Below are positions 3,241 to 6,069 of a stretch of 64,000 nucleotides of DNA, piece by piece. Location of the stretch: assembly GCA_027364735.1 (NCBI GenBank), contig DAHXOT010000019.1, positions 62,001-126,000 on the forward strand. Direction: 5' to 3'. Position 1 is the stretch's first letter, and every line of letters begins with the position of its first letter. This DNA is from Hydrotalea sp. (GTDB taxonomy: Bacteria; Bacteroidota; Bacteroidia; Chitinophagales; Chitinophagaceae). A program made the translations under genes and the position numbers. Under the pieces are notes generated by a model. The model had not been told where the DNA came from. It did no database searches and was given only the letters and a program-made list of their open reading frames with translations.

Positions 3241-3558
3241 TTATAAATGTGCCAGAATCTTTTTTTCAATTACGTTTTTTGGTACTGCTCCTACTTGTTT
3301 ATCAACTACTTTACCACCCTTAATAAACAAAATTGAAGGAATTGAAGTAATCCCATAATTCATACTAATATTAGGGTTATGGTCTACATTTAATTTTCCA
3401 ATGGTTACTTTGCCTGCAAATTGATTAGATAGTTCTTCCATTGCAGGAGCAATAGCACGGCAAGGGCCACACCATTCTGCCCAAAAATCAATTACGGTTA
3501 ATTTATCGTTTTCAATAACTGAACTTTGAAAATTAGCATCTGTAAATTCTGCTGTCAT
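3241..3558 (-). CDS. trxA: thioredoxin
   Basis: A cytoplasmic disulfide reductase of 105 aa, the usual size for thioredoxin 1. The redox site WCGPC is at residues 29-33, preceded by VIDFWAE. The cis-proline loop TSIPS is at about 71-75, and the conserved FIKGGKVVDKQVGA strand follows. An in-frame Met at 3663 would add 35 unrelated residues; the start at 3558 (MTAEFTDANF) fits the family. A possible leftward -7 element TATTTTTG lies at 3588-3595. It ends at the terminator shared with the convergent glycosyltransferase gene. Confidence 0.93.
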   Translation of the reverse strand: MTAEFTDANFQSSVIENDKLTVIDFWAEWCGPCRAIAPAMEELSNQFAGKVTIGKLNVDHNPNISMNYGITSIPSILFIKGGKVVDKQVGAVPKNVIEKKILAHL

Positions 3559-3587
3559 ATTATATATTTTATATTTTTTGTAGAAAT

Positions 3588-3595
3588 CAAAAATA
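3588..3595 (-). promoter_or_regulatory. possible -7 element for thioredoxin
   Basis: On the minus strand this reads TATTTTTG, a match to TAnnTTTG, about 30 nt upstream of the chosen thioredoxin start. I see no clear -33 element, so this is tentative. Confidence 0.35.
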
Positions 3596-3689
3596 AATCC
3601 AAAGGTTAATTTATGCAGATTTGACTTATCCACTTTTGTGATTAATGACGAATAAATGACCAAATGCTGACAGCTGGTCAGATGATTTT

Positions 3690-3754
3690 TTAAAAAACAA
3701 AAGCATCAAATCTGTTTTTGTTAAATTTTCACTTAACTATTCAGATCCGATGCT
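3690..3754 (-). terminator. hairpin terminator of the leftward unit at 3.7-4.3 kb
   Basis: Read leftward, the stem AGCATC...GATGCT (3749-3754 with 3702-3707) continues inward as ATCTG/CAGAT (3710-3714 with 3742-3746) across a 2x2 internal loop. A T-rich run, TTTGTTTTTT, follows it. This is the form of an intrinsic terminator. It implies that a minus-strand transcript ends here, after the broken gene. Confidence 0.6.
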
Positions 3755-4160
3755 CTTGGTTAAATAACCTTTCCCTTTTACAGAATTGGTACTATTTAAC
3801 TGCATCGTGTTTTTTAGGTGGTTTCTTTGCAGTTGCCACTTCTTACTAACCCGATGCTTTCAATTGAAGAGCGAACTTTTTTTGCAAAAACTTCGCATTT
3901 CAATTTCATCAAGAAGTTGTACTACAGCTTTAGCCGGTAATAACTTACTTGATGTTGGTTTAATAAAATATTCTTGTTACAGAATATTTTGGGTTAAACC
4001 AGATTTTTCGAAATACTCACTTCATTAATTGTAATTAAATCCATTTTCTTTTCGAAAAATCGGAAACTTTCTCATTTAACTTCGAGTTACCGATAATTAA
4101 ATGGTGGGTTTCCATATCGTAAGTTTCAATTTTTCTTTCGATTAATTTACTTTTTACGAT
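3702..4160. repeat. chain of consecutive inverted repeats
   Basis: At least eight stem-loops stand one after another in about 460 bp. Stems are 3702-3714/3742-3754; 3759-3769/3788-3800; 3802-3807/3852-3857; 3871-3875/3892-3896 plus an inner T5/A5; 3907-3918/3942-3953; 3957-3963 and 3965-3974 with 3981-3990 and 3994-4000; 4002-4013/4050-4061 (12 bp, perfect); and 4062-4067/4108-4113 with 4073-4079/4097-4103. A ninth pairs 4116-4122 with 4154-4160. This density is well above what I see elsewhere in the window. It could be RNA secondary structure or DNA-level quasi-palindromes in a decaying gene. Confidence 0.7.
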
Positions 4161-4273
4161 AACATTTTACTTTGATGGAATCCTTATTGAAGGGATAGTA
4201 TCGTTTCATTTGCTGCATAAAGATAGTTTTCAATTACTTCTATTTCCAAATTTTTAAGCTCATTGTTACGCAC
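3792..4273 (-). pseudogene. frameshifted remnant of an unrecognised gene, or structured RNA
   Basis: I do not recognise this gene. Read leftward, protein-like stretches appear in different frames. A GTG-started run (4273) includes NELKNLEIEVIENYLYAANE. Next come KLIERKIETYDMETHHLIIG, then MDLITINEVSISKNLV (ATG at 4044), then KPTSSKLLPAKAVVQLLDE. A lysine-rich end, VATAKKPPKKHDAVK, closes at a TAG (3792-3794). Together they would make about 160 codons of a basic protein. Each frame break falls in or beside one of the inverted repeats listed for 3702-4160. A terminator-like hairpin follows on the same strand. The alternative is a non-coding structured RNA whose AT-rich sequence only looks coding. 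I found no hallmark of tmRNA, RNase P RNA or SRP RNA. Confidence 0.45.
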
Positions 4274-4361
4274 TTATTTTTAACTGTAAAAGCAGGCTAA
4301 TGCACAGGTTTATTAACAACTGCTTAATGTAGATTGCCTGTATTTTTATGGTTAATTACAC

Positions 4362-4392
4362 TTTGTATAAGCACCGGCAACCCTTACCTTTG
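4362..4392 (+). promoter_or_regulatory. promoter of prfC
   Basis: TTTG (4362-4365), a 19-nt spacer and TACCTTTG (4385-4392) match the full Bacteroidota consensus TTTG-N19-TAnnTTTG. Transcription would start near 4398, giving a leader of about 85 nt before prfC. Confidence 0.7.
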
Positions 4393-4482
4393 CGACTATT
4401 TTTTAAAAACTTGAATTTTTTAAATAAAAGAAGAGAAGTGAAAAGTTAATGCCTTCATCATTCCATTTTCTATACTAATACA

Positions 4483-6069
4483 ATGAAATACGAAAAAGAA
4501 ATAGTACGCCGCCGAACATTTGCAATTATATCTCACCCCGATGCCGGTAAAACCACATTAACCGAAAAATTATTGTTATTTGGTGGAGCTATTCAAACAG
4601 CAGGAGCAGTAAAAAGTAATAAAATTAAAAAGCATGCAACCAGCGACTTTATGGAAATAGAAAGGCAACGTGGTATTTCGGTTGCTACCAGTGTAATGAC
4701 TTTTGAATATAAAGATTGCTTAATAAACTTATTAGATACTCCGGGCCACAAAGACTTTGCAGAAGATACTTACCGAACTCTAACGGCAGTAGATAGTGTT
4801 ATTTTGGTAATTGATAGCGTGAATGGTGTAGAAGCTCAAACCAGAAGATTAATGGAAGTGTGCCGAATGAGAGATACACCTGTAATTGTATTTATTAATA
4901 AAATGGATAGAGATGGGAAAAACAGATTTGATTTATTGGAAGAAATTGAAAAAGAACTGAAAATTTCTTTACATCCTATGACATGGCCTATTAATAGTGG
5001 AAAAGATTTTAAAGGAGTATATGATTTAAGCGAAAAAAGTTTGTTACTCTTTACAGCCAATACAAAAGCCGATGATGAAGATGCTATTGTAATTGAAAAT
5101 TTACAGGATACAATATTAGACACGAAAATTGGAGAAGCCGATGCTAAACATTTACGCGATGATGTTGAATTAATAGAAGGTGTACATGGCGAACTAAGTG
5201 TGGATGATTATTTAGGCGGAAAAATTGCTCCAGTGTTTTTTGGAAGTGCAGTAAATAATTTTGGTGTACGCGAAATGTTGAACACATTTATCAAAATTGC
5301 TCCAATACCAAGAAGCAGAGAAACATCTTTGCGTGAGGTGGAAGTTGGTGAAGATAAATTCAGCGGATTTATTTTTAAAATACATGCCAATTTAGATCCT
5401 AAGCATAGAGATAGAATTGGTTTTATGCGTGTTTGCAGTGGCAAATTCGAACGCAATAAATATTACCATCATGTTCGGTTAGATAAAGATATTCGTTTCA
5501 GCAACCCTTACTCATTTTTAGCCAGAAGTAAAGATGTAATTGAAGATGCTTACCCGGGCGATGTGGTAGGGTTATTTGATACCGGTAATTTTAAAATAGG
5601 AGATACATTAACCGAAGGAGAGAATTTTTATTTTACAGGGATACCTACTTTTTCGCCGGAAATATTTAAAGAATTGGTAAATAAAGATCCGATGAAAACT
5701 AAGCAATTAGAAAAAGGAATTCAGCAGTTAACCGATGAAGGTGTGGCACAATTATTTACTCAATTTGGTGGTACTAAAAAAATTATTGGTTGTGTAGGAG
5801 AATTGCAGTTTGAAGTAATTCAATACAGGTTATTACAAGAATATGGGGCAGCTTGCGAATTTAGGGCTTTGCCTTTTTATAAAGCTTGTTGGTTAACTTC
5901 AAAAAATCAGAAAAAGTTAGATGATTTTCTTCGATATAAACAAACCAATACTGCCGAAGATAAAGATGAACATCCGGTTTATTTAGCACAAAGTGAATGG
6001 TTTTTGAATACAGAAATTAACAATAACTCAGATATACAATTTCATTTCAGTAGCGAAATTCATAAATAG
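4483..6069 (+). CDS. prfC: peptide chain release factor 3
   Basis: RF3 is the translational GTPase that removes RF1/RF2 from the ribosome after peptide release and takes part in post-translocation quality control. The 528-aa length is standard. The P-loop is in SHPDAGKTT (residues 17-25). Switch II is DTPGHKDF (86-93), with the catalytic histidine at 90, and NKMD is at 140-143. [10 protein letters not shown] marks switch I, and the TDEGVAQLF region in the C-terminal half is RF3-specific. The sequence [22 protein letters not shown] gives the natural start. A textbook promoter lies about 90 nt upstream. It converges on the acyltransferase gene that follows. Confidence 0.96.

Follow-up and report, generated by a model that had tools for sequence, protein, structure and literature searches.

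A chain of hairpins upstream of trxA in Hydrotalea is probably a long member of a structured RNA family of Chitinophagaceae

A chain of hairpins in the window (the whole 64,000-nucleotide stretch of DNA that was analysed, on a 134-kb contig of a 2.77-Mb Hydrotalea genome) is most likely, to judge from sequence comparison, a long member of an RNA family of one bacterial family, Chitinophagaceae. The preliminary description had left three readings open, i.e., a structured, roughly 500-nt non-coding RNA, a pseudogene, or a gene whose hairpin inserts are skipped by translational bypassing. The first of these is upheld by the folding z-scores, the covariation, a promoter and terminator, and the homologues, and we consider it very probable that the feature is a structured non-coding RNA gene of a Chitinophagaceae family. 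The gene (about 520 nt; 3690..4213, minus strand; limits estimated from the -7 box at the start and a T-run at the end) carries, to judge by sequence pattern, a promoter and an intrinsic terminator of its own, both conserved in position, and the minus strand is the sense strand of the RNA. It sits between trxA on the minus strand (stop end at 3241; longest ORF called 3241-3663) and prfC on the plus strand (4483-6069), both named from their translations.

Both strands of positions 3690-4290 (601 bases) fold far better than dinucleotide-shuffled controls, the comparison proposed with the preliminary description, at z-scores of around -9. The minimum free energies were -149.5 kcal/mol (plus) and -158.3 kcal/mol (minus) against shuffled means of -99.5 and -101.1, respectively (z = -9.5 and -9.1; 100 shuffles per strand). 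Ten adjacent hairpins are predicted on the minus strand from 4202 to 3698 (within the long multiloop, positions were read off the dot-bracket string by hand), which bears out the earlier count of at least eight consecutive stem-loops. From the 5' end these are hairpins 1 (4174..4202), 2 (4115..4161), 3 (4062..4113), 4 (4002..4061), 5 (3956..4001), 6 (3907..3954), 7 (3862..3905), 8 (3802..3857), 9 (3759..3800; apical UUCUGUAAAAGGGAA) and 10 (3698-3758). With the T-run that follows it, hairpin 10 forms the predicted long-form intrinsic terminator of the window's clade (3690..3758), and is the terminator-like hairpin that had been seen to close the unit. The basal stem of hairpin 4 is the perfect 12-bp stem described at 4002-4013/4050-4061. 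Hairpin 5 (apical UUCUGUAACAAGAA) has the two-part stem described at 3957-4000, but with 8+10 rather than 7+10 pairs and a domain of 3956-4001. Hairpin 7 is the probable counterpart of the first hairpin of short family members (CAATTGA..TCAATTG), and hairpin 8, with the 5' arm GCATCGGGTTAGTAAG, is the family's hairpin B, which serves as the terminator in short forms. The unit extends beyond the earlier limits of 3690-4273, with a promoter region at about 4218-4305.

A study of Flavobacterium psychrophilum (PMC9723704) reports a sigma-A motif TAnnTTTG at -12 to -5, and placing the window's -7 box (TATCTTTA; 4218..4225, minus strand) by this consensus puts the RNA start near 4213. The -33 box TTTGG, with an A-tract before it, lies at 4246..4250, at the same spacing from the -7 box as in most collected members of the family. 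A proximal upstream element GTGCGTAAC (4265..4273), which holds a GTGCGTA copy, starts 23 bp before the -33 box, and a possible distal element GTGCATTAG (4297..4305) lies off the family's standard positions; both are on the minus strand.

The hairpin arm GCATCGGGTTAGTAAG was the lead to the wider family. An exact scan for it in one genome per species returned 58 stretches (47 from Bacteroidota by title, 11 from other phyla). Among the Bacteroidota stretches, 29 had the promoter and the 3' arm, five the arm only, five the promoter only and eight neither; a promoter or matching 3' arm was found in none of the 11 from other phyla. Adding genome searches to the scan gave a set of 60 distinct members, each having a promoter and a hairpin B. 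They come from 153 sources (152 loci plus the window, with many places represented twice) after identical sequences were dropped and loci without a promoter or hairpin-B match were left out. The window's promoter reads TTTGG...TATCTT, and the other 59 members have similar boxes, TTTGG and TATCTT-like boxes being a condition of collection. The window's nearest relatives, in genera g25 and g73, have TACTTTTA for TATCTT, fail the promoter pattern and were handled separately (A5).

Lengths were taken between the -7 box and a point just beyond the stem of the terminator. By this measure the 60 members fall into three sets: 22 of 118-140 nt, in which a single hairpin is predicted ahead of hairpin B; 24 of 151-189 nt, which have two or three such hairpins; and 14 of 309-743 nt, which have 2 to 15. 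The window's entry ends at hairpin B (426 nt), and its 3' part is outside these counts. Two more long genes were read in G249 (~616 nt) and G072 (~774 nt). Total length in the family ranges from about 118 to 774 nt, chiefly according to how many hairpins (1 to ~15) precede hairpin B. The core common to its members measures about 110 nt, and members below 200 nt make up 46 of the 60. Nearly all of the 60 fold better than shuffled controls (z < -2 in 59/60, mean -5.4; 20 shuffles each). The members have in common the promoter, one or more 5' hairpins and hairpin B (AAAGCAUCGGGUUAGUAAG...GRUGCUUU), usually together with phased GTGNANA elements. Most forms use hairpin B as their terminator; the window's clade adds two hairpins and a new terminator after it.

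Frequent features of the hairpins before B are a GNRA-like cap, GGAA and an A-rich stretch (U-[ACU]-A-A-[AC]-A-R). Counted at any position before hairpin B, and with patterns that, like those for promoter and terminator, were picked after data inspection, the A-rich motif T[ACT]AA[AC]A[AG] occurred 84 times against 39.3 +/- 5.8 in 100 shuffles (present in 49/60 RNAs), GNRA-like caps 59 times against 23.0, and GGAA 130 times against 73.4 (100 shuffles in each case). GAUAACA is the repeat in the 628-nt long form L168 (G068), GCAAUG caps recur in Niabella-type long forms, and UUCUGUAAAAGGAA-like caps recur in the window's clade; different lineages seem to have amplified different loops.

Upstream of TTTGG, GTGNANA elements, which were not a condition of collection, start at -46 (39/60), -34 (33/60) and -23 (44/60), i.e., 12 and 11 bp apart, and at least two occur within 70 bases in 47 of the 60 members. 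The window's copy at -23, GTGCGTA, is one base off GTGNANA and stands outside the 44. Searching 12 genomes (including G142, which has no match to the RNA models) for the triple element with up to two mismatches gave seven matches in six genomes; six were at this promoter, and the seventh was inside a coding sequence read as a histidine kinase. At this threshold the triple element was absent from five RNA-bearing genomes (G000, G024, G091, G102 and G238), one of which is the window's own. These upstream elements suggest control by one regulator. The GTGNANA elements resemble the DnaA box consensus TTATNCACA, and a replication origin was considered and rejected for G238: the RNA lies at 2.946 Mb in the negative-skew arm, and skew sampled in 20 stretches puts the switch to positive at 3.36-3.84 Mb, too distant for the locus to be the origin there. 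On the window's contig, GC skew is mostly positive on either side of the locus.

Long homologues of the window's RNA were found in two other genera, g25 (G024, G121, G147 and G148; DNA 69-77% identical to the window) and g73 (G153). In an alignment of six long homologues, 93.1% of cells were paired across 131 predicted pairs. Changes on both sides occurred in 33 of these 131 pairs (shuffled mean 13.4, 0/500 as high; slid controls 3-9) and, for 14 medium-length members, in 22 of 36 pairs (shuffled 12.9, 0/500; slid controls 5-9); as each structure was predicted from the very alignment used to score it, these figures are biased in its favour. Such changes on both sides with pairing kept support the fold. 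A BLAST search with the window's DNA picked up very little of the RNA family: 10 of 147 genomes matched. These were the window's genome, G024 and G121 with long matches, and seven with matches of 24-61 bases. One of these seven, in G072, is at that genome's RNA promoter, and the other six look like chance.

The distribution was profiled with three models, for the 3' part in the window's clade (R1), the promoter plus short form (R2, A4; from 12 of 19 short or medium sequences) and the medium form (R3, A6; from 14 of 16 candidates). Among Chitinophagaceae, R1 matched 20 of 394 genomes, R2 77 of 294 (30 of 92 genera) and R3 81 of 294 (36 of 92 genera). With strict filters, R2 and R3 jointly covered 92 of 294 genomes, a union that assumes that both draws of 294 were identical, as their equal settings imply. 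Both find the window's locus weakly (best E 0.0015 and 1.3e-4, respectively). The 202 genomes with neither an R2 nor an R3 match may lack the RNA or carry forms missed by the models and strict filters. R1 had no match in G037 (86% complete), the sole other genome of the window's genus searched, by loss, divergence or an assembly gap.

Few matches fell outside the family, in draws that themselves contain some own-family genomes. R2 gave three weak ones in 346 class-drawn genomes (G397, G709 and G512; E 0.0064-0.0099), and R3 matched 43 of 393 order-drawn genomes, 41 in the family and two outside (G742 and G781). Both R3 outsiders lie inside sequences read as protein genes, the G397 match overlaps the start of a 417-codon open frame, and the G709 match resembles a simple terminator just after a gene; these four were rejected as false-looking. 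In the G512 match, the hairpin-B motif was not seen. At gathering score, Rfam 15 matched only two tRNAs in the window and nothing in 12 related loci, and at a relaxed threshold the four matches within 3600-4500 (E 1.7-3.8) were all far below gathering; the RNA family is so far unlisted where tested, in the window and these 12 loci. We found no description of such an RNA in the open-licence literature searched by title and abstract.

The genomic context of the RNA changes between lineages. Across 70 loci, the neighbours (gene names from reading the sequences) recur inside clades and vary between clades, including dnaE/trxA, yajQ, tyrS, rarA and a glucosidase-like gene. Since the neighbours vary in this way, the RNA is probably not the leader of one gene, and action in trans is likely. 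The pair of RNA and trxA is common to the window, L003 and L018, with prfC as the upstream neighbour in the window and dnaE in the other two, where the RNA is flanked by dnaE and trxA; gene order has thus been altered on the upstream side of the RNA. Window positions 3575-3690, between the RNA terminator and trxA, also hold sequence shared among genera, including GTGGATAAGTCAAA and a box resembling TATTTTTG, and are probably the trxA promoter region. Some genomes (G123, G140, G239 and that of JACDBU010000215.1, the last with L046 and L083) apparently have two copies of the RNA gene at separate places.

From the enriched motifs and the changing neighbours, we infer a trans-acting RNA with protein-binding hairpins. 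CsrB/CsrC and RsmX/Y/Z are free-standing titrating RNAs with many small hairpins, repeated caps and an intrinsic terminator, and the CsrB-type partner is CsrA. Minus-strand positions 4213-3690 would be transcribed as a free-standing non-coding RNA acting in trans, whose repeated hairpins would be the binding units for an RNA-binding protein. One RNA could then hold many copies of the protein and titrate them, the number of hairpins would set its valency, and the logic would be that of CsrB with a protein other than CsrA as the partner. CsrA (PF02599) was found in none of 14 genomes, the window's own included (3/14 controls positive), of which 11 match the RNA models and three (G142, G061 and G087) do not; with no CsrA found in these genomes, membership of the CsrB family proper was rejected. 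Against titration, the A-rich motif is missing from 11 of the 60 RNAs, the loops are not uniform, and the 22 members with a single predicted hairpin before hairpin B would make a poor sponge. Also to be weighed against the explanation are the lack of a CsrA match in the 14 genomes, the five RNA-bearing genomes in which the triple element was not found, G037 with no R1 match, and the 202 family genomes that neither R2 nor R3 matched. We regard the titration mechanism as plausible, though somewhat short of an even chance. The explanation as a whole, a family RNA gene combined with protein titration, is marginally favoured, as a compromise between its parts. It is a tentative further step to propose a new class of titration RNAs, with a family-wide core, 1 to ~15 protein-binding hairpins depending on the lineage, a protein other than CsrA, and a dedicated regulator acting via the phased promoter elements.

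The reading as protein-coding DNA fared worst among the alternatives. It had been claimed that the minus strand carries an unrecognised gene whose frame breaks coincide with the hairpins, and the minus strand does have short open stretches. However, none of nine open stretches (29-86 aa, both strands) had a Pfam match at E <= 1, no ORF longer than 64 aa lies within the RNA interval in the five relatives from g25 and g73 (L003, L010, L011, L004 and L018), and alignments with relatives have gaps of 1, 2 and 4 bases, not multiples of three. ORFs of 40-64 aa in that interval number 0, 1, 2, 2 and 2, respectively, and are mostly antisense. An intact orthologue in close relatives had been named as a find that would point to an ordinary gene with errors; these five relatives hold none, and it is the pairing and not the frame that is conserved, which speaks against a pseudogene, and no coding sequence was found that would give translational bypassing a substrate. 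Both the pseudogene and the bypassed gene were rejected on these grounds and keep a negligible probability. In our view, frame switches in an AT-rich non-coding stretch with nearly every position in a hairpin would fall in hairpins anyway. A cis-acting leader (attenuator) of trxA would fit the gene order in the window and two further genera, where the RNA immediately precedes trxA on the same strand. TrxA-like proteins are nevertheless encoded downstream in only 9 of 70 loci, the downstream gene in other clades being different or pointing in the opposite direction, and the RNA ends in a terminator, with a further TATTTTTG box between it and trxA; with neighbours that change between clades, we judged such a leader highly unlikely.

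Among readings that keep a free-standing RNA, a trans-acting base-pairing sRNA is a possible though unlikely one, in which exposed loops (e.g., the AGUAAG strand of hairpin B and the A-rich apical loops) would pair with target mRNAs and the extra hairpins would supply target sites or stability. The short forms have the size of an ordinary sRNA and a terminator, and AGUAAG beside stem B is invariant in 12 aligned short forms, by construction, as that set was collected by the motif. Against this, AGUAAG varies in several medium members found by the covariance model, and base pairing does not readily explain the amplification of whole hairpins with repeated caps. The array could instead be the machine itself, a structural RNA that assembles, e.g., into a homo-oligomer of the ROOL, GOLLD or OLE kind whose geometry would depend on the number of hairpins; large ornate bacterial RNAs do form homo-oligomers according to PMC12286853. 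The long, strongly structured members (to 743 nt among those collected, and G072) would suit such a role, but the short common core and the preponderance of members below 200 nt make it improbable. It is very improbable that the RNA is this lineage's own equivalent of 6S RNA and binds RNA polymerase. Hairpin B does have an apical stem separated from its closing stem by an internal loop, and RF01685 (6S-Flavo) matched none of 14 Chitinophagaceae genomes (among them G142, G061 and G087, which the RNA models do not match), though no control genome was positive either; the short forms, however, fold as side-by-side hairpins and not as a single rod closed by the RNA ends.

To our knowledge, post-transcriptional control in Bacteroidota is little mapped beyond Bacteroides and Flavobacterium. 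A conserved RNA with a signature promoter in about one-third of the sampled Chitinophagaceae offers a direct handle on the RNA-binding protein that it may serve. The natural members with 1 to ~15 hairpins also provide a ready series to ask whether valency sets the strength of regulation.

Compared with known systems, the RNA is structured, conserved, from Bacteroidota and under the same type of sigma-A promoter as Rfp18 and other sRNAs of Flavobacterium psychrophilum (PMC9723704), but it belongs to another bacterial family. It shares with 6S-Flavo (RF01685) the character of a short structured non-coding RNA in Bacteroidota, and differs in overall fold. Like OLE, ROOL and GOLLD it can be a long, highly structured non-coding RNA, but it has no Rfam match at gathering (window and 12 loci), its core is short and its long forms look like hairpin expansions. 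In architecture there is a parallel with CsrB/CsrC and RsmX/Y/Z, which are likewise free-standing, with many small hairpins, an intrinsic terminator and a variable number of hairpins. Repeated caps may be a further likeness, although here the caps differ from theirs, the RNA occurs in one Bacteroidota family, and hairpin number ranges from 1 to ~15 within that family. If the proposed mechanism holds, the RNA would work like a hairpin-array titration RNA, yet stand outside the CsrB family by the CsrA test.
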